A stretch of 64,000 nucleotides of DNA from Terrabacter sp. Root181 (lineage in GTDB: Bacteria; Actinomycetota; Actinomycetes; Actinomycetales; Dermatophilaceae), in NCBI RefSeq assembly GCF_001428505.1, contig NZ_LMHU01000011.1, positions 95,403 through 159,402 on the forward strand, read 5' to 3'. A program made the translations under genes and the position numbers. The notes beneath the pieces are model-generated. The model had not been told where the DNA came from and did no database searches. It saw only the letters and a list, made by a program, of their open reading frames with translations. Below, piece after piece: positions 6,251 through 61,564 of this stretch; the stretch's first letter is position 1, and each line of letters begins with the position of its first letter.

Positions 6251-8887
6251 GTGCGCGAGCTGCCGTCCGGGACGGTGTCGATGCTGTTCTCCGACATCGA
6301 GGGGTCGACGCTGATGCTGAGCCGTCTGGGGCGCCGGTACACGGAGGCCCTGGACAAGCACCGGGACGTGCTGCGTTCGGCATGGGCCGCCCACGGGGGC
6401 ACGGAGATGGGCACCGAGGGGGACAGCTTCTTCGTCGTGTTCCCCACCGCCGAGGGCGCGGTGAGCGCCGCCGTCCAGGCCCAGCGCGGACTGGACACCC
6501 AGCCGTGGCCCGGGGACGAGCGCGTACGCGTACGCATGGGCATCCACACGGGGTCACCGCAGGTCCACCACGACGACTACGTCGGGATGGACGTGCACCG
6601 CGCGGCCCGCATCGCCTCCTCTGCCCACGGGGGGCAGGCCGTCCTGTCGTCGGTCTCGGCGGGGCTCGCTCGGGGCGCTCTTCCCGACGGCGTCGGACTG
6701 CGGGACCTCGGCAGCCACCGCCTCAAGGACATCCCGGAGCCGGAGCGGCTCTTCCAGCTCACGGTCGACGGCCTGCAGAACGACTTCCCGGCGCTCAGGA
6801 CCCTCGGCGCTGCGACCCGCCTGCCGATCCCGACGACCCACCTGGTCGGACGTGAAGAGGCGGTAGAGGAACTGGTCGACCTGGTGCGGTCGCCCGAGGT
6901 CCGACTGGTCACGCTCAGCGGACCCGGAGGATCGGGCAAGACGCGACTCGCGACGGAGGTGGCGACCAACCTCGTGACGGCCTTTCCCGACGGGGTCTAC
7001 TTCGTGCCCCTGGCGGCGGCCACCACCCCCGAGGTGACGTGGACGACGCTCGGCGACGTGCTCGAGGTGCCGCGGAGCAGCCGCCTGCCACCGCGACTGT
7101 TCGAGCAGGTGGCGAACCGGACGGCCCTCTTCGTCCTGGACAACCTCGAGCAGCTCAGCGACGCCGACGAGGTCGTCTCGGAGCTGCTGCAGGCGGCGCC
7201 CCGAGCAGCGGTCGTGGCCACCTCGCGTCGACCGCTGGCCGTGCCGGGGGAGCACCTCTACCCGGTCCTGCCCCTCGGCCTGCCGACCGGTTCGACGGTG
7301 GCTGCCGTCGAGAGGTCCCCGGCGGTGCAGCTGTTCCTGCAGCAGGCCCGTAGCGTGCGCCCGGACTTCCGGCTGACGCCGGAGAACGTCGACGCGGTCG
7401 TCGCCATCTGCCGGCGCCTGGACGGGCTACCGCTGGCCATCGAGCTGTCCGCCGCGCGGACCCGTCTGCTCGGTCCGCAGGCGCTCCTGCGTCGGATCGA
7501 CACGACGCTCGACCTCGCGTCGATGAGCAGGCACGGCCCGATGAGGCACCGGACGCTGCGCGAGACCATCGCCTGGTCCTACGACCTGCTCCCCGGGCGT
7601 CATCAGGCGTTCTTCCGGCGGCTGGGGGTGTTCGCAGGCGGGGCAGACCTCGAGGCGGTGAGGGCGGTCGCGCTCCCCGCCGGGTCGGGGGACCCGCCCA
7701 GCGAGCCCCTGGACCTCGTCGCCGACCTCGTCGACGCCAGTCTCGCGCTCGTGTCCGAGGCGCCCGACGGCGAGCCGCGCATCACCCTCCTGGAGACGAT
7801 CCGATCCTTCGCACTGGCGGAGCTGCGCGGCACGGGTCAGCTCGACGAGGCACGCTCCGCGCACGCCGACCACTACCTGGAGGTCGCCGAGAGCCTCAGG
7901 GTGACGCGCGACTCCGACCACCTCCTCGCCCTCGGCCAGGCGGAGGCCGAGCTCGACAACTTCCGTGAGGCCCTGGTGTGGGGGCTTCGCCATGGCGGGG
8001 CGACCGAGGGCCTGGATCTCGCCGCGACCTCGACCGCGCTCCGGTTGTCGACGTCGCTCGGATGGCTCTGGTACACGGGTGGATACGTCATCGAGGGATG
8101 CCGTTGGTTGGAGCTGGCTCTCGAGCGCGCCGGGAGCGCGCCGTCGGGGGAGCTCGCCGCATGCCTCGGGACCTACGCCAACCTCCTGATCGCGCGGGGT
8201 GAGGCCGATCGCAGCGCTGAGTACGCCATGCAGAGCCTGTCCATGGCGCGCGCGGTCGCCGACGAGGAGCGGGAGGCCTTCGCGATGGGGGTCCTCGGGA
8301 CGGCGCAGCTGCACCAGGGGGACATCCACTCCGCCCATCGGACGTTCGAGGAGTCCCTCTCGCTGCACCGGCGGATCGGCAACCAGTCGAGGCTCACCCG
8401 TGCCCTGGGCAACCTCGCCGGGGTCGAGGAGGAGCTGGGCCACTACGCACGCGCCGAGGAGCAGACCCACGAGGCGCTCGAGATCGTCCGGGAGGCCGGC
8501 GATGAGCACGAGTCAGCGGTCCAGGGCCAGAACCTCGCCAACCTCCTGGCGGCGAGCGGGCGGGCGGAGGAGGCCGGCCGGCTCGCACAGTCGCTCGTCG
8601 ACCAGGTCGTGCGGCTGCGCAGCCCGAACCTCACGATGGCCTTCGCCAACACCTACATGACCATCCTCATCGGGCTCGGGGACCCGGTGGGCGCCGCGCA
8701 CCTGATCGGAGCCGAGGAGGCCATGAGGGACCGTCTCTCGCTGCCGAACCCCTACCGGGACGAGGAGCGGGCCGAGGCCTGGACCGCGGTGGAGGGGCAC
8801 ATCTCCGCCGAGGACTGGGCGCGCGAGATCCGGACCGGGCGGGAGTCCTTGGTGGAGGACCTGCTCCTCGGACTCGACGACGGCTGA
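6251..8887 (+). CDS. class III cyclase-like / NB-ARC-type ATPase / TPR protein
   Basis: An 878-residue protein. Residues 1-165 form a class III nucleotide cyclase-type domain with metal-binding aspartates D15 (FSDIEGST) and D58 (GTEGDSFFVVF). The usual VN.AAR transition-state motif reads VHRAARI, so the Asn is His. A STAND/NB-ARC ATPase follows with Walker A GPGGSGKT near residue 224 and Walker B ALFVLDNLEQ near 293. The last third has TPR-like helical repeats. GTG 6251 has GGGAGG 4 bp upstream. Proteins of this layout are common actinobacterial regulators, but the ligand and target are unknown. It is a single gene. Confidence 0.85.
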   Translation: MRELPSGTVSMLFSDIEGSTLMLSRLGRRYTEALDKHRDVLRSAWAAHGGTEMGTEGDSFFVVFPTAEGAVSAAVQAQRGLDTQPWPGDERVRVRMGIHTGSPQVHHDDYVGMDVHRAARIASSAHGGQAVLSSVSAGLARGALPDGVGLRDLGSHRLKDIPEPERLFQLTVDGLQNDFPALRTLGAATRLPIPTTHLVGREEAVEELVDLVRSPEVRLVTLSGPGGSGKTRLATEVATNLVTAFPDGVYFVPLAAATTPEVTWTTLGDVLEVPRSSRLPPRLFEQVANRTALFVLDNLEQLSDADEVVSELLQAAPRAAVVATSRRPLAVPGEHLYPVLPLGLPTGSTVAAVERSPAVQLFLQQARSVRPDFRLTPENVDAVVAICRRLDGLPLAIELSAARTRLLGPQALLRRIDTTLDLASMSRHGPMRHRTLRETIAWSYDLLPGRHQAFFRRLGVFAGGADLEAVRAVALPAGSGDPPSEPLDLVADLVDASLALVSEAPDGEPRITLLETIRSFALAELRGTGQLDEARSAHADHYLEVAESLRVTRDSDHLLALGQAEAELDNFREALVWGLRHGGATEGLDLAATSTALRLSTSLGWLWYTGGYVIEGCRWLELALERAGSAPSGELAACLGTYANLLIARGEADRSAEYAMQSLSMARAVADEEREAFAMGVLGTAQLHQGDIHSAHRTFEESLSLHRRIGNQSRLTRALGNLAGVEEELGHYARAEEQTHEALEIVREAGDEHESAVQGQNLANLLAASGRAEEAGRLAQSLVDQVVRLRSPNLTMAFANTYMTILIGLGDPVGAAHLIGAEEAMRDRLSLPNPYRDEERAEAWTAVEGHISAEDWAREIRTGRESLVEDLLLGLDDG

Positions 8888-20915: not shown

Positions 20916-22142
20916 TCAGAAGTACTCGGTGATGAAGGGCTGGCAGGCGAAGACGGCGTCGAGGGCGGCGTCACCCTCGGAGGTGCCGCCGCTCGCGAGC
21001 CCGGCCAGGCGCAGGCGCGAGACCGACCAACCGCACCACAGCGCCGACAGGCCGCGGGCGTCGACGTGCAGCGCGTCCGAGGCGATCGCGTCGGCCACGT
21101 GGGTCTCGGCATCACCTCGAACCGGGGCGTCGCCGGTGCGGGTCGCAGTCCCGCGGCCGTCGGCGACCGACAGCGTCCAGCGGCCGGCGTTGGCCGGCGC
21201 ATCGGAGTCCTCGACGAGGAGGTCGACCTCGACCGAGGTGTGCCGACCGAAGCCGCGGCCGGTGAACGCCGCGCCGAGGTCGATGACCCGGGCCATCCAC
21301 GGGACCTGCCGCGCGTCCGCCACCGGCAGCCCGCCGAGCACGAGTGTCACCGGGTCGCGGGGGTCGAGGAAGGTGTGCACCGTCGGAGCGGCGGACGACC
21401 CCGATCCGACGACCCCCCAGAGCGTCGCCGCCGCCTCGGGCGTCGTCGCGACGAGCTCCTCTACCGTGACCGCCTGCTCGGACAGGTCGTAGACGACGAA
21501 GCCGCCGTCGACGACGTACGCGATGAGCTCGTCGCGCTCGAGCATCCCCGTCAGGGCTGCCACCGACCGCACCATCGGTCCGCTCACCCCGGCCCGGGCG
21601 CTCGCCTCGCGGGCGAGGTCGTGCAGGTGCTGCGCGTCGTCCGGCACGGCGGGGCGCAGGCCGTTCGACGCCGCCCGCCCGGAGCGCGAGGGTCCGAGGT
21701 CGCGGACGTGGTGGGCGGCATACGTCATCCGCGTCTGCACGCCGCCGATCTCGTAGCCGGAGCGGCGGTAGAGGGTGGCGGTGGTCGGGAAGAGGCACGA
21801 CACGACGTCACCGAGCTCGCCCATCCGCGCGATGAGCGCGCGGGTGAGGGCCGTGGCGACGCCTCGGCCCCGCGCGCTCGGCTCGACGTAGACCCCGGCG
21901 ACACCACCCATCTGCAGGTGCCGCCCGCCCCAGGCCTGCTCGAACGGTCGGATGCGGCCGGCGCCGACGACGGTGTCCGACTCGTCGACGACCGCGATCA
22001 TCCGGCCGCCGAGGGTCTCGGCCGAGACGCGGTGCCACCACGCGTCGCCGCCGATGCCGAGCGGCCCGAACGACCGGCTGCGGATGGCCAGGACGGCGGG
22101 GAGGTCGGCGTCGACGACGTCACGGGTGCGCAGCTCGCTCAT
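20916..22142 (-). CDS. Eis-like GNAT N-acetyltransferase
   Basis: A 408-residue protein of the Eis family: two GNAT-like regions followed by an SCP2-like C-terminal domain. The acetyl-CoA loop RGRGVA is at 91-96. The likely catalytic tyrosine is in LYRRSGY (Y125). The chain ends in Phe, whose free carboxylate acts in Eis enzymes. Mycobacterial Eis acetylates aminoglycosides and protein lysines; the substrate here is unknown. TAGGTT sits 6 bp before the ATG (leaderless). An element of the 24-nt-centre palindrome family lies in the C-terminal coding part. Confidence 0.9.
   Translation of the reverse strand: MSELRTRDVVDADLPAVLAIRSRSFGPLGIGGDAWWHRVSAETLGGRMIAVVDESDTVVGAGRIRPFEQAWGGRHLQMGGVAGVYVEPSARGRGVATALTRALIARMGELGDVVSCLFPTTATLYRRSGYEIGGVQTRMTYAAHHVRDLGPSRSGRAASNGLRPAVPDDAQHLHDLAREASARAGVSGPMVRSVAALTGMLERDELIAYVVDGGFVVYDLSEQAVTVEELVATTPEAAATLWGVVGSGSSAAPTVHTFLDPRDPVTLVLGGLPVADARQVPWMARVIDLGAAFTGRGFGRHTSVEVDLLVEDSDAPANAGRWTLSVADGRGTATRTGDAPVRGDAETHVADAIASDALHVDARGLSALWCGWSVSRLRLAGLASGGTSEGDAALDAVFACQPFITEYF
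21075..21125. repeat. 24-nt-centre palindrome element inside the eis-like gene
   Basis: The right arm ATCACCTCGAACCGG (21111-21125) is identical over 15 bp to arms at 59 kb. The left arm GTCCGAGGCGAT (21075-21086) matches at 10 of 12 positions. The centre is exactly 24 nt, as in the four complete copies. Confidence 0.6.
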
Positions 22143-57020: not shown

Positions 57021-58196
57021 TCACGACCCCCCTAGCGCGTGTCCGATCTCGCGCAGGCTGTCGAGGTCGTGGACGTCGCGTCCCAGCGCGGGCACGTTCA
57101 CCACGGGTATGCCGGGGTGTGACCGTGAGAAGCGGTCCGCGAGCTCCCGCTGTCGCTCGGCCGTGCGCACGAGCGATGCGTGGAGCCGCAGCAGGCCGGC
57201 GGCGTTCGACGCCGACTTCGGACCTCCGCCCTCCTCGAGCGACTCCGCGGCGGCGAGCGCCCGTGACGGGGTGACTCCGGTCGCCGAGACGCGGCCGATG
57301 CGGTTGACGACGAGCCCGGCGAGCGGCATACCGTCCGCCTCGAGGCGGTCGACGAAGTAGGACGCCTCGCGGAGCGCGTCGCGCTCGGGTGCGGCGACGA
57401 CGAGGAAGGCCGTGCCCTGCTCGGACAGCAGCCGGTACGTCTCGTCGGCGCGCTCGCGGAAGCCGCCGAACATCGTGTCGAGGGCGTTGACGAAGGTCTG
57501 GACGTCGCTGAGCATCTGGCCGCCGAGGATCTTCGTCATCGCGCCGGTCACGATCTGCACGCCGACGCCGAAGACCTTGAGGCCTGCGCGGCCGCCCGCC
57601 TTGGCCGGCGCCGTGAGCAGGCGGATGAACCGTCCGTCGAGGAAGCTGCCGAGCCGGTTGGGGGCGTCGAGGAAGTCCAGGGCCGACCGGGACGGCGGGG
57701 TGTCGACGACGATGAGGTCCCACGGGGCGTCCTCGGTGCCGGCGCTCGCCTTGAGCTGCCCGAGCTTCTCCATCGCCATGTACTCCTGCGTGCCGGCGAA
57801 GGAGCTGCTCACGGCCTGGTAGAAGGGGTTGGCGAGGATCTGCTCGGCCTTGCCCGGCTCGGAGTGGGCGATGACGACCTCGTCGAAGGTCCGCTTCATG
57901 TCGAGCATCATCGCGTGGAGGCTGCCGCCCGCGGAGGTGTCGATGTCGGTGACCGGCCGGGGTGTGTTGTCGAGCTCGGTGAGGCCGAGCGACTGGGCCA
58001 GACGACGAGCCGGGTCGATCGTCAGGACGACCACCTTGCGACCCGACTCGGCGGCGCGCAGGCCCAGGGCCGCGGCCGTCGTCGTCTTGCCGACGCCGCC
58101 CGAGCCGCAGCAGACGACGATCTGGGTCGCGGGGTCGTCGATGAGCGCGTCGACGTCGAGCGCCGGAGCCTTGCTCGAGACGGGGCCGGGGCTCAT
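57021..58196 (-). CDS. ArsA/GET3-like ATPase, second of a pair (Rv3680-like)
   Basis: A 391-residue deviant Walker ATPase. The P-loop is GSGGVGKTTT near residues 32-41, switch I DPARRLAQSLG, and a DTPPSR motif follows. It corresponds to mycobacterial Rv3680 by order. Its ATG overlaps the stop of the first ATPase (ATGA), so the two are made together and probably form a heterodimer. Homologues have been studied as bacterial GET3 homologues; client proteins are not known. Confidence 0.9.
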   Translation of the reverse strand: MSPGPVSSKAPALDVDALIDDPATQIVVCCGSGGVGKTTTAAALGLRAAESGRKVVVLTIDPARRLAQSLGLTELDNTPRPVTDIDTSAGGSLHAMMLDMKRTFDEVVIAHSEPGKAEQILANPFYQAVSSSFAGTQEYMAMEKLGQLKASAGTEDAPWDLIVVDTPPSRSALDFLDAPNRLGSFLDGRFIRLLTAPAKAGGRAGLKVFGVGVQIVTGAMTKILGGQMLSDVQTFVNALDTMFGGFRERADETYRLLSEQGTAFLVVAAPERDALREASYFVDRLEADGMPLAGLVVNRIGRVSATGVTPSRALAAAESLEEGGGPKSASNAAGLLRLHASLVRTAERQRELADRFSRSHPGIPVVNVPALGRDVHDLDSLREIGHALGGS

Positions 58197-59257
58197 GCGT
58201 CGACCGTGCCGGCACCAACGTGCGGGTCGACGTGCGAGAGCTGCGGGTCGACGTGGTGGACGAAGAGCGGCACGAGGAGGTCGGCGAGCTCGCGGACCGA
58301 GCCGGAGTCGACGCCGTCGGGCAGGGCAGGCAGCGAGGCGATCGGAAGCCCGGTGGCCTCCAGGAGCGCGAGCTGCTCGCGCTCGAGGTCGATGCGCTGG
58401 GCGTGGTCGCGGGCCTCCTCGAGCAGGCCGTCGACGAGCTCGGGCGTCGCCTTGACGCCGGCCTCGCCGAGCTGGGTACGGATCGAGGGCTTGTGCAGCC
58501 GACCCTCGCGGGCCTTCTCGAGCGCGGTGTCGTCGAGGAGTGGCTCGCGCACCATGTTGACGATGATCGCGCCCGGGTGCAGACCCTTGGCGCGCAGGTC
58601 CTCGATGGCCTCGAGCGTCTCCTGGACCGGCATCTCCTCGAGCAGGGTCACGACGTGCACGACGGTCTGCTCGGACTCGAGCAGGCGGGTGATCGAGCCG
58701 GCCTGCGAGGCGATCGGCCCGACGCGGGCGAGGTCGGCGACCTCGGAGTTGACCGAGAGGAAGCGGCCGATGCGTCCCGTCGGCGGGGCGTCCAGGACGA
58801 TGCCGTCGTAGACCGGGGCGGCGTCGCCCTTGTGCTTGCCGTCGCGGCGGCGCCGGTTGGCCTCGTAGATCTTGCCGATGAGCAGGACGTCCCGGACGCC
58901 GGGCGCGATGGTGGTCGCGAAGTCGATGGCGCCGAACTTCTCGAGGAGCTTGCCCGCGCGTCCGAGCTTGTAGAACAGGTGGAGGTACTCCAGCAGGGCG
59001 GCCTTGGGCTCGATCGACAGGCCGACGACCTCGCCGCCCCCCGGCAGCCGCACGATGCGGGTCTCGTCGGTGCCGAGCGGGGGCACGTCGAAGGTCTGGC
59101 TGATGCCCTGGCGGCCCTCGACCTCGGTCAGCAGCACGTGGGCCGGTGTCGACGCGAGGGCGAGTGCGATCGCCGAGGCGACCGTGGTCTTGCCCGTGCC
59201 GCCCTTGCCGGTGACGACGTGCAACCGCGCTCGCGCAAAGGTGGGGCCGGTCGTCAC
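58193..59257 (-). CDS. ArsA/GET3-like ATPase, first of a pair (Rv3679-like)
   Basis: A 354-residue ATPase with P-loop GKGGTGKTTVA near residues 17-27 and the LDAPPTGR motif. It lacks metalloid-binding cysteines typical of arsenite pumps, so an anion-pump label would be misleading. GTG 59257 has TAGAGT 6 bp upstream (leaderless). In mycobacteria the divergent neighbour is the DUF4177 gene. Here a DUF559 gene, repeats and a hydrolase lie in between. Confidence 0.9.
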   Translation of the reverse strand: MTTGPTFARARLHVVTGKGGTGKTTVASAIALALASTPAHVLLTEVEGRQGISQTFDVPPLGTDETRIVRLPGGGEVVGLSIEPKAALLEYLHLFYKLGRAGKLLEKFGAIDFATTIAPGVRDVLLIGKIYEANRRRRDGKHKGDAAPVYDGIVLDAPPTGRIGRFLSVNSEVADLARVGPIASQAGSITRLLESEQTVVHVVTLLEEMPVQETLEAIEDLRAKGLHPGAIIVNMVREPLLDDTALEKAREGRLHKPSIRTQLGEAGVKATPELVDGLLEEARDHAQRIDLEREQLALLEATGLPIASLPALPDGVDSGSVRELADLLVPLFVHHVDPQLSHVDPHVGAGTVDA

Positions 59258-59292
59258 GCGTCCACTCTAGGACCCGCCCCACACCCACCCCC

Positions 59293-59340
59293 GTTCGAGG
59301 TGATCCCGGTAGCACCGTGGGTGTCGGAATCACCTCGAAC
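59293..59340. repeat. 24-nt-centre palindrome, copy 1
   Basis: Perfect 12-bp arms GTTCGAGGTGAT / ATCACCTCGAAC around a 24-nt centre. It lies between the ATPase operon promoter and copy 2, on the 3' side of the DUF559 gene. Confidence 0.9.
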
Positions 59341-59355
59341 GAGGCCGACCCACCG

Positions 59356-59409
59356 CCGGTTCGAGGTGATCGCGGTAGCCGCACCGGTGGCGGGATCACC
59401 TCGAACCGG
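59356..59409. repeat. 24-nt-centre palindrome, copy 2
   Basis: Perfect 15-bp arms CCGGTTCGAGGTGAT / ATCACCTCGAACCGG around a 24-nt centre. It lies 16 bp from copy 1 and ends 18 bp before the 3' end of the DUF559 gene. Confidence 0.92.
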
Positions 59410-59426
59410 TGCGAGCGGGACGTGCG

Positions 59427-60347
59427 TCAGGCGGCGGGGTGCTCGAGCTGGGCGTGGCCCTGGGCCACCTGGCTCATGAACTCGTCGGTGAAGACACGCA
59501 GCCCGACGAGGTCGATGCGGAGCGCGCGGTCCCCCTTGAGGACGAGCGCGTTGGTGCGGAGGTTGTCCGCCGAGACGGCCAGAGCGCGCCCGTGCTGGAC
59601 GCCGTCGATCTCGACCACGAGCCCGTTGCGCCAGCGGACGTCGAGATAGACCCGACCTCGATCGGTGCGCACGACGACCTGCCGGTCCGGCTCCGGGAGC
59701 CCGCGCTCGCGGCACAGCCGGGCGAAGTCGAGCTCGCCCAGCGACTGCACACCGAGCGCGATGTCACGCACGACTTCCTTGACGAACGCCCTGCGACGTC
59801 TGCCCCGAAGCTGCCTGGTTGCCCGCAGCAGCTGCTCCGGGGAGGCCAGTCCCTGCTGCGCCGTCATGAGCAGGATGAGCGCCGCCTGCCGGTTGCTGAC
59901 GGCCCAGTGCGCCGCACGGACCGCTGCCACCGCCGGGCGTGTCCGGGGGATCCCGACCTCGATCACCTCGCCGTCGACGCGCCGGATCACCTTGTGCGGC
60001 GCCACACCGCGGGGCCAGGTCACACGGGCAGTGTGGACGACGGAGCAGTGGATCGCCGGGTCGTCGTAGTGCTCGAGTCCGGCGACCTGAAGCGCTGTCA
60101 CGCCATCGAGCGCGGCGACGTCCGGCCCGACCTCCCAGACGGCACGCCACAGGGTCTCCTCACGGCTCAGTGGACGGGTGTGCACGGCGACTGTGACGTC
60201 GCCGTGCACCACCCACCGCTCCGAGCGAACTTCGTAGGCCACGTGACGTCGCTCGATACCAGCTGACCGAAGCATCGCCCGCGACACGACCCCGCCGTGA
60301 CGCTCGGCGAGATCACGGGCGATCCGCCGTCGTTCCGAACCCTTCAT
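59427..60347 (-). CDS. DUF559 (Vsr-like nuclease fold) protein with AbiEi-like N-terminus
   Basis: A 306-residue protein of a type abundant in actinobacteria. The N-terminal part resembles the AbiEi-type winged helix (HGGVVSRAMLRSAGIERRHV). The C-terminal 110 residues fit DUF559, a Vsr/restriction-endonuclease-like fold (LPEPDRQVVVRTDRGRVYLD, VEIDGVQHG, DNLRTNALVLKG). The D...E-D-H residues expected of a nuclease site are visible. ATG 60347 was chosen over TTG 60356. The function is unproven. Pairs of identical palindromic elements lie on both sides. Confidence 0.85.
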   Translation of the reverse strand: MKGSERRRIARDLAERHGGVVSRAMLRSAGIERRHVAYEVRSERWVVHGDVTVAVHTRPLSREETLWRAVWEVGPDVAALDGVTALQVAGLEHYDDPAIHCSVVHTARVTWPRGVAPHKVIRRVDGEVIEVGIPRTRPAVAAVRAAHWAVSNRQAALILLMTAQQGLASPEQLLRATRQLRGRRRRAFVKEVVRDIALGVQSLGELDFARLCRERGLPEPDRQVVVRTDRGRVYLDVRWRNGLVVEIDGVQHGRALAVSADNLRTNALVLKGDRALRIDLVGLRVFTDEFMSQVAQGHAQLEHPAA

Positions 60348-60440
60348 GCGTCCCAAGGTCGCGGTGTCCCCGGTCCGGGGCGAGCGGCATACGCACGCCT
60401 GTGGACGGGGAGGCAGCGGCCGGGTGGGGCTGTGGATACC

Positions 60441-60492
60441 CGGTTCGAGGTGATGTCGGCACCGCCGTGGCCCCCGCGATCACCTCGAACCG
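60441..60492. repeat. 24-nt-centre palindrome, copy 3
   Basis: Perfect 14-bp arms CGGTTCGAGGTGAT / ATCACCTCGAACCG around a 24-nt centre, 94 bp upstream of the DUF559 start. Confidence 0.92.
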
Positions 60493-60509
60493 AGGGAGGC
60501 GACGCCGAG

Positions 60510-60553
60510 TCGAGGTGATGTCGAGACCGACGAGGCTGCCGCGATCACCTCGA
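60510..60553. repeat. 24-nt-centre palindrome, copy 4
   Basis: Perfect 10-bp arms TCGAGGTGAT / ATCACCTCGA around a 24-nt centre, 17 bp from copy 3. It lies 20 bp before the 3' end of the hydrolase gene. Confidence 0.88.
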
Positions 60554-60573: not shown

Positions 60574-61431
60574 TCAGGTGAGGGAGCGGACGGCGGCGAG
60601 GACGGATGCGAACGCCTTGGACTGCGGGTCGATGACGGCGAAGTGGTCGGCGCCCGGCACGACCTGCTCGGTCACGTCGCCGCCGGCGGCCTTCGCCTGC
60701 GCGACGTAGTCGTGGGCCACGGCCAGCGGCACGGTGTCGTCGTCGGTGCCGTTGACGAGCCGCACCGGCACCTTCGGCGGAAGGGTCGACATCGGGTCGG
60801 CCGAGGCCCACGCGGCCGTGCCCGGCCCGGACCCGACGAAGTCACGCGTCGCGTCGGACCCGAGGTGCAGCCGGTCCGCAGCCCCGAGGTCGACGACGCC
60901 GGCCAGCGACACGACTCCCGCGATCCCGCGCTCGCGGGCCCAGGTCTGGCCGGCGGCCCACGCGACGAGGTGACCCCCGGCCGAGTGACCGACGAGGACG
61001 AGCGGCTTGGGCAGGTCGGGCTGCGCGGCGACGGACGCGAGGAGGTCGCGCACGTCGTCGAGGGTCCCGGGGACGCCGCCACCCGGCATACCGACTCGGC
61101 GGTACTCCGCCAGCACCACGTGGTAGCCCGCCGACGCGAAGGCGTGGGCCTCGGGCAGCGCGTGCTCGCGGTCATACTCGGCGCGCCAGAAGCCGCCGTG
61201 GACGACGACGACCGTGGCCGTCACCGCCGGCGCGCCCGCGGCCGGCGGGAGGACGTCGTAGACCTGCGCGGCGTCGCTGCCGTAGGAGCGGGTCGAGGCG
61301 CTCGCGGGGGACGTCGTCGAAGGGCTGCCCGTCATGGGCGTCATGGTGTCACCCGCGCCGCCGACGCACCCCGAGAGAGCTGTGGTGACACTGAGTAGGG
61401 TGATGGCCATGACCCAGTGGGAATACCTCAC
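60574..61431 (-). CDS. alpha/beta-hydrolase lipoprotein (esterase/peptidase-like)
   Basis: A 285-residue alpha/beta-hydrolase with an oxyanion HGG motif (VVVVHGGFWRAEYD), nucleophile elbow LVGHSAGGH, acidic residue in LVNGTDDDTVP and catalytic His in GADHF. The N-terminus has a lipobox LSGC, so it is probably anchored outside the membrane. GTG 61431 gives a better signal peptide (MRYSHWVMAITLLSV) than ATG 61410. Either start lies head-to-head with the DUF4177 gene start. Confidence 0.82.
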   Translation of the reverse strand: MRYSHWVMAITLLSVTTALSGCVGGAGDTMTPMTGSPSTTSPASASTRSYGSDAAQVYDVLPPAAGAPAVTATVVVVHGGFWRAEYDREHALPEAHAFASAGYHVVLAEYRRVGMPGGGVPGTLDDVRDLLASVAAQPDLPKPLVLVGHSAGGHLVAWAAGQTWARERGIAGVVSLAGVVDLGAADRLHLGSDATRDFVGSGPGTAAWASADPMSTLPPKVPVRLVNGTDDDTVPLAVAHDYVAQAKAAGGDVTEQVVPGADHFAVIDPQSKAFASVLAAVRSLT

Positions 61432-61564
61432 CGCACCGCTTCTGATCCACAACACCAAGCAGATCCTCGACAACTTCGGGGCGGACGGGTGGGAGCTCGT
61501 CCAGATCGTCAACGGTCCCGACGGCACGAGCCTCGTCGCCTACTTTAAGCGCCCGAAGTCCTGA
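61409..61564 (+). CDS. DUF4177 protein (Rv3678A-like)
   Basis: A 51-residue protein (MTQWEYLTAPLLIHNTKQIL...) with the DUF4177 features W(E)Y and NFGADGWELVQIV. It is the small gene found next to the Rv3679-type ATPase and RidA genes in actinobacteria. TAGGGT lies exactly 7 bp before ATG 61409, so the mRNA is probably leaderless. First gene of a DUF4177-RidA-NUDIX-MBL operon. Confidence 0.9.
   Translation: MTQWEYLTAPLLIHNTKQILDNFGADGWELVQIVNGPDGTSLVAYFKRPKS

Follow-up and report, generated by a model that had tools for sequence, protein, structure and literature searches.

REP repeats and RAYT enzymes are the best-known example of an enzyme that lives alongside palindromes of its own, and PD-(D/E)XK nucleases have precedents in transposition and homing, in TnsA of Tn7 and in homing endonucleases. 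The accessible text of two studies describes palindromes that flank the RAYT gene and have scattered cognate copies, often paired or arrayed; the palindrome type changes with the gene, and presence of the gene correlates with presence of cognate repeats (PMC2817692, PMC3733652). REP copy numbers are given there as usually over 100 per genome (PMC2817692). TIRtrons/TIRYT are described, in the accessible portion of PMC3733652, as different genes with different flanking repeats, some of which form repeat families. According to the available part of PMC7319586, the binding sites of AbiEi are two 23-bp inverted repeats separated by 3 bp, and inverted repeats are bound by Rv2827c as well.

We analyzed a stretch of 64,000 nucleotides from Terrabacter sp. 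Root181 (hereafter, the window) in which a gene encoding an AbiEi-like/nuclease-like protein lies between palindromes. To our knowledge, no repeat-associated enzyme family fits such a gene with palindromes, and among the listed matches in the openly licensed literature no title or opening of an abstract described the gene–palindrome association. The features are listed below by window position.

58193 to 59257, minus strand: left neighbor, an ArsA-type ATPase gene; left anchor of the orthologous site, outside the system.
59295 to 59338, no strand: palindrome 1, core TCGAGGTGAT-N24-ATCACCTCGA; perfect arms reach 59292 to 59341.
59361 to 59404, no strand: palindrome 2, starting 66 bp after palindrome 1; perfect arms reach 59356 to 59409.
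59427 to 60356, minus strand: gene for a 309-aa AbiEi-like/PD-(D/E)XK-like protein; TTG start as listed, with an in-frame ATG three codons on.
59787 to 60356, minus strand: N-terminal part of the protein, residues 1 to 190; AbiEi-like, with a winged helix followed by a middle domain, according to PADLOC AbiEi models and Foldseek.
59430 to 59774, minus strand: C-terminal part of the protein, residues 195 to 309; DUF559/PD-(D/E)XK-like.
60445 to 60488, no strand: palindrome 3; perfect arms reach 60441 to 60492.
60510 to 60553, no strand: palindrome 4, starting 65 bp after palindrome 3.
60574 to 61527, minus strand: right neighbor, an alpha/beta hydrolase gene; right anchor of the orthologous site, outside the system.
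21077 to 21120 (G000:C11:116479-116522), no strand: probable decayed scattered copy of the window class, with 2 arm mismatches.

The four 44-bp palindromes form two doublets, one on each side of the gene, with start-to-start distances of 66 and 65 bp. Palindrome 2 is separated from the stop codon by 22 bases and palindrome 3 from the listed start codon by 88 bases. Perfect arms of palindromes 1 to 4 measure 13, 16, 14, and 10 bp, and exactly 24 nt lie between the 10-bp cores in all four. The first-pass annotation had described four near-identical palindromes with 24-nt centers, arranged as two tight pairs bracketing a single gene, and both statements were confirmed, with arms of 10 to 16 bp. 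A search of the window's genome (G000; 4.94 Mb, 12 contigs) that allowed spacers of 20 to 30 nt returned 15 exact copies, all of them with N24, and no copy of the reversed control pattern. There were 20 copies at up to one mismatch and 22 at up to three, four of them beside the gene. This number is far beyond chance. The 24-nt center is not random either: over 52 listed copies from G000 and a second genome of the genus, G003, inner positions paired in 59% of cells versus 22 to 35% in slid controls. In the same 52 copies, the inner 24 nt of this Terrabacter class showed no covariation beyond column composition, and a hairpin was on that ground rejected as a conserved feature of the class. Known RNA families were also rejected as the identity of the palindromes, the two miRNA matches being far below cut-offs.

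The nearest named relatives of the encoded protein are from Terrabacter tumescens, an Intrasporangiaceae strain, Terrabacter sp. Ter38, and Humibacillus. PADLOC AbiEi models span residues 4 to 189, and one of these models was matched by 11 of 12 homologues; the N-terminus scored 22.7 bits against Pfam AbiEi_4, under the cut-off of 25. An AlphaFold2 model (pLDDT 89.2, pTM 0.85) had as its best Foldseek matches the AbiEi antitoxin 6y8q (E = 2.8e-5) and Rv2827c 1zel (E = 5e-4), and AbiEi-type proteins were the only matches at E ≤ 0.001. The gene had initially been called DUF559 nuclease-like. That label stood in part: the whole protein reached 12.9 bits against Pfam DUF559 (PF04480), below the cut-off of 20.6, and its C-terminus is weakly DUF559-like, the family being matched weakly by nine of 12 homologues at E ≤ 0.1 (best, 0.0013). 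Matches of the C-terminal part to nucleases were weak (PvuRts1I, E = 0.075; EndoMS, E = 0.33). Residues E208, D239, E249, D251, and H255 in this part are invariant across the 12 homologues and may be active-site residues. Pfam, NCBIfam, and PHROGs gave no match to an HUH/IS200-IS605-type tyrosine transposase or to any other transposase family. The two neighboring genes encode the ArsA ATPase and the alpha/beta hydrolase listed above, and no AbiEii nucleotidyltransferase toxin gene is adjacent.

The locus shares with REP/RAYT systems (REPtrons, BIMEs, and REPINs) the palindromes on both sides of a gene, the scattered cognate copies in pairs or arrays, and a palindrome type matched to the gene. 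It differs in its protein, which is AbiEi-like plus PD-(D/E)XK-like rather than an HUH tyrosine transposase, and in its palindromes, which are symmetric and were found within a search range of 36 to 56 bp. No GTAG or CGTC tag was seen at the arms of the listed elements (judged by eye, flanking bases being visible for part of the loci). Genomes counted here held 1 to 52 copies, in contrast to the figure of usually over 100 in the accessible text of PMC2817692, and divergent cassettes are found at fixed sites, facing either way. With an unrelated protein and without the tag, the system is in our view not a member of REP/RAYT. TIRtrons/TIRYT likewise have gene-specific flanking repeats, some forming families (PMC3733652, accessible portion), but their proteins are HUH tyrosine transposases, which the protein here does not match. 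The likeness to AbiE type IV toxin-antitoxin systems lies in the N-terminal architecture, by profile and by fold, and in the binding of inverted repeats by AbiEi proteins (PMC7319586, available part). Unlike in AbiE, the C-terminus carries an additional nuclease-like domain, the neighbors are an ArsA ATPase and a hydrolase instead of an AbiEii-type toxin, and palindromes occur on both sides of the gene and genome-wide.

Flanks were scored at 116 homologous loci, which remained from 129 tblastn-matched loci after removal of 10 duplicates and of three loci whose flanks were cut by contig ends. These loci include 23 plus 80 from one homologue list, the best entries taken roughly by E-value; one duplicate and about a dozen entries on short contigs or near contig ends were left out of that list. 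A matched palindrome on both sides (10-letter arms, at most three differences) was present at 72 of the 116 loci versus one of 578 control intervals, and at none of 65 control ORFs, 29 of which came from the window. Exact shared 8-letter arms occurred at 58 of 116 loci versus one of 1161 same-length control intervals from the same loci; the corresponding counts were 74 versus nine for 7-mers and 40 versus one for 9-mers. Left and right palindromes were equal in length in 68 of the 72 positive loci. By identity to the window protein, positives made up 3/4 at ≥70%, 15/18 at 58 to 70%, 14/24 at 54 to 58%, 23/29 at 50 to 54%, 12/29 at 46 to 50%, and 5/12 below 46%. By this test, 44 homologues had no matched palindrome. 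The 116 homologues are related and hence are not independent trials; the result is strong because the palindromes are diverse. The gene and the palindromes are associated. That common GC-rich palindromes happen to flank the gene is hardly credible: high GC does raise the number of inverted repeats, but the controls (1/578 intervals, 0/65 ORFs, reversed patterns 0) refute such a coincidence.

A profile search of 396 genomes sampled from the phylum found relatives at E ≤ 1e-15 in at least 34; scoring was limited to six candidates per genome, so the true number may be higher. More distant relatives were sampled at 28 loci beyond the two nearest genomes, one of which was cut by a contig end. Matched flanks were found at six of the remaining 27, all six outside the window's family, and exact 8-mers at four of 27; the other 21 had no matched palindrome. 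The same settings applied to family loci gave no positives among 453 control intervals. Three distant paralogues in the window's own genome had no matched flanks (0/3). The layout around the window gene had been likened in the first-pass annotation to REP doublets around RAYT genes, and the relatives support this comparison (72/116 loci vs 1/578 intervals and 0/65 ORFs). The proposed link to DUF559 genes holds for the subfamily that combines AbiEi-like and nuclease-like parts, in whose core most close homologues have palindromes, and does not extend to DUF559 at large, given the counts of 6/27 and 0/3.

One homologue, 45% identical, lies on MT837139.1, a phage-labelled contig from human feces (L274, 3643 to 4542), flanked left and right by 44-bp CGGTGATGCA palindromes; this contig is possibly bacterial DNA carrying a phage label. 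Carriage by phages or plasmids was rejected, with no plasmid match at E 1e-5 and a single, unannotated, phage-labelled contig.

The palindrome differs from gene to gene, the left and right copies of each gene match, and paralogues within one genome mostly differ. Examples of arms are TTCGATGTAT at a paralogue in the window's own genome, TTTGAGGTA in G005, CGTGTGTGAA in the genus g47, TTCGAAGAAG in G101, ACGTCATACG in a Nocardioides, and AGGTAAGACA in a Tetrasphaera. Across 13 pairs of positive paralogues from the same genome, the arms on the left and right of one gene agreed in 9.9 of 10 letters (minimum, 9), a figure biased by the fact that loci had been picked for agreement, whereas arms of different genes agreed in 4.9 of 10 letters, two pairs being alike (8 and 9). 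Protein identity correlated with arm similarity (Mantel r = 0.34, reached in 0 of 2000 permutations). By region, r was 0.41 for the middle domain (residues 63 to 190), 0.16 for the winged helix, and 0.15 for the nuclease-like domain. That the middle domain tracks the arm best would not be expected if, in the simplest view, the arm were read by the winged helix.

Scattered copies were counted in the nine genomes of the window's genus (G000 to G008). The window class occurred at up to one mismatch in six of them, with 20 copies in G000, 6 in G001 (all with a mismatch), 52 in G003, 18 in G004, 20 in G007, and 27 in G008; G002, G005, and G006 had none. A gene of the window's close clade is present in G000, G008 (88% identity), G003 (85%), and G007, where it consists of two overlapping pieces with an internal stop, and was not found in G002, G005, and G006. 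G004 has its 18 copies without a close-clade gene, G007 its 20 with only the broken gene, and G001 its six without an intact close-clade gene and with another intact homologue (59%) elsewhere. The copies in G004 and G001 speak against a strict rule and are compatible with past presence of the gene. In G003, five palindromes stand on each side of the gene. Near-identical tandem palindromes at G003:C2:7550-7865 and G003:C10:179953-180213, with steps of 68 and 72 to 73 bp, suggest recent local amplification of a palindrome plus its spacer.

Two further classes were followed. Among 186 genomes of the family, exact CGTGTGTGAA-N-TTCACACACG palindromes were confined to genus g47, where nine genomes had 2 to 30 copies each, and the reversed control was zero. 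Palindromes of this class stand on both sides of fetched genes in G162, G164, G167, G168, and G169; the fetched gene of G172 has the variant CGTGGGTGAA in their place. The fetched gene of G166 has CGAGGTGAAA, and G166 holds no CGTGTGTGAA-class copy. G170 and G171 carry 11 and seven copies with no gene of the class among the fetched genes, and G165 carries two copies and a gene of another class. Inner cells of the CGTGTGTGAA class paired in 84.5% of cases versus 22 to 30% in slid controls (69 distinct listed 42-mers), and the inner stem covaries, with seven of 11 inner pairs exceeding all 2000 shuffles, in which relatedness is still contained. The TCGATGTAT class has one to five copies in six of the nine genomes of the window's genus. 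Some of these copies adjoin genes of that class in G000, G003, and G006; G001, G005, and G008 have one, three, and one copies, respectively, and the searches turned up no gene of that class in these three.

Reversed-pattern controls were zero in every genome searched, and scattered cognate copies track the presence of the gene type, with exceptions in G001, G004, G005, G007, and G008 (one class each), G165, G170, and G171. The two findings named as refuting in the first-pass annotation, scatter with no tie to the genes and homologues generally devoid of the elements, are not seen in the core family: the copies are scattered, but their classes largely follow gene types. The initial proposal of a repeat-associated nuclease gene was largely borne out, with the qualification that many homologues have no visible palindromes and some genomes have copies but no matching gene.

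A palindrome doublet in G000 (L011, 1435 to 1544; G000:C9:76174-76283) lies inside an 808-codon open frame, counted from stop to stop; other frames are open there too. This doublet is absent from the orthologous place in G005 and G006.

Eight scattered G000 sites were compared across the genus, and the numbers are small. The comparison of empty sites, proposed in the first-pass annotation, showed scattered copies at some orthologous sites and none at others. The element was absent at 5/5 readable sites in G006, 2/7 in G002, 1/4 in G001, 1/2 in G003, and 1/1 in G005, and an extra copy was seen at one compared site in G008 and at another in G007. Arms were intact in 7/8 copies in G008 and 1/2 in G003, both with an intact gene, and in 0/5 in G002, with no close gene, and 0/4 in G001, with a gene remnant at the orthologous site. 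In these two species without an intact close gene, every one of the few readable copies has decayed. Identity of the left anchor to that of G000 is 91% for G004 and G002, 89% for G007, 88% for G003, and 87% for G008 and G001. Distance alone fails to explain the decay in G002 because its left anchor is 91% identical and that of G008 87%. The argument is blurred because G004 and G007 keep 6/9 and 5/9 copies intact.

These sites bear on the possibility that the palindromes are useful hairpins, such as terminators or chromosome landmarks, which the protein maintains or processes without spreading them. Several scattered copies seem to lie between the stop codons of converging genes (read by eye), the CGTGTGTGAA class folds into long hairpins with compensatory changes, and the arms have decayed in G001 and G002, all of which would suit a housekeeping role. 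Such a role is nonetheless unlikely: relatives have orthologous sites without copies, genes within one genome mostly have different sequence classes, and no T-run follows the window copies (read by eye).

The site between the ArsA ATPase and hydrolase genes was compared across the same nine genomes. It holds a close-clade gene in G000, G003, G007 (broken), and G008 (where the left anchor is on another contig). In G005 it holds a gene of 59% identity flanked left and right by TTTGAGGTA palindromes, and in G004 a 60%-identical gene with one TTTGAGGTA-type palindrome and a decayed one opposite (read by eye; negative in the flank test). G001 has a gene remnant, and G006 a spacer of about 90 to 120 bp without gene or element. 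At this site G002 (L165, about 2400 to 2690) has no gene and a different tandem palindromic array, GGAGCAGTGACGTAGCGC-like, of another repeat family.

Among the 72 positive loci, pairs sharing both flanks had the gene in the same orientation in 113 cases and inverted in 117, with no parity conflict. The largest context group comprises 20 loci, 11 in one orientation and nine in the other, and requires four orientation changes on the protein tree (which follows the genes and not the species), three of them forced by well-supported branches. The flanks of inverted pairs are up to 93.6% identical and the genes 63.9 to 74.9% (measurable in 114 of the 117 pairs); divergent cassettes, each with its own palindromes, therefore lie at the same sites whichever way they face, which we read as replacement. 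Flank homology ends close outside the outer palindromes in aligned examples, and no target-site duplication or exact insertion boundary was resolved at the compared presence/absence sites. Simple flip-flop inversion between palindromes was rejected as the main cause, as inverted pairs are never close relatives. Opposite orientations could also stem from differential loss of old inverted duplicates; this, or exchange of divergent cassettes, fits better than flip-flop.

The same observations weigh on a purely regulatory explanation, in which an AbiEi-like repressor would control its own gene and a scattered regulon through the palindromes, with no movement. AbiEi and Rv2827c autoregulate through 23-bp inverted repeats in promoters, a similar scale (PMC7319586, available part), and one doublet does lie upstream of the window gene. 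We consider an operator function distinctly unlikely, however, in view of the matched copies downstream as well at 72/116 loci, the five-palindrome arrays to the left and right of the G003 gene, the doublet inside the 808-codon open frame, the gain or loss of orthologous copies between relatives, and the occupation of the same sites by divergent cassettes facing either way.

The explanation that we favor, with moderate confidence, is a nuclease–repeat system resembling REP/RAYT and built on an unrelated protein that would bind the arms, cut, spread the palindromes, and home as a cassette. The AbiEi-like N-terminal part would bind its cognate palindrome at the inverted arms, probably with a monomer on each half (two in all), and the C-terminal PD-(D/E)XK-like domain would nick or cut at the bound palindrome. 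The break could lead to new palindrome copies elsewhere, as singles, doublets, or short arrays. It could also let the whole palindrome–gene–palindrome cassette insert, or be replaced, at favored chromosomal sites in either orientation. We infer binding, cutting, protein-driven copying, and mobilization, and so also the action on or movement of the palindromes suggested in the first-pass annotation. More tentatively, these loci may represent a class of selfish elements in Actinomycetota, in which a fusion of AbiEi-type and PD-(D/E)XK parts spreads its cognate palindromes along the chromosome, the cassette homes to fixed sites in either orientation and repeatedly displaces divergent residents, and repeat and protein co-evolve; such a class, if real, might well be previously undescribed. 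If this is true, it would be a second, unrelated solution, so that the lifestyle of an enzyme with its own palindromes evolved more than once, and a function could be assigned to the AbiEi/DUF559-like proteins, a large family that is so far unexplained. The many natural protein–palindrome pairs could be used to read out a DNA-recognition code.

A classical insertion sequence, that is, a transposon with palindromic ends whose scattered copies are miniature derivatives and whose transposase has an unusual catalytic domain, differs from the favored nuclease–repeat system mainly in emphasis. A single gene with like ends, the short spacer without gene or element at the ArsA/hydrolase site of G006, and cassettes in both orientations are all in keeping with it. 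We rate it as very unlikely on account of the protein, which matches no transposase family and has no transposase among its fold matches at E ≤ 0.001, and of the behavior of closely related genes (≥75% identity), which mostly keep their place, 13 of 18 pairs sharing both flanks. The one recent duplication concerns a segment of at least 9.3 kb rather than a cassette. It was found in G065 (L159, 1 to 9355, and L158, 1 to 9355), where the gene-holding segment is 99.9% identical between copies. Transposition was rejected for these gene copies, the match beginning at both fetched edges; because the whole segment of at least 9.3 kb is duplicated, they are uninformative on cassette movement. In one of them (L158, about 7900 to 8000), the downstream palindrome is seemingly interrupted after its left arm by insertion-sequence-like DNA.
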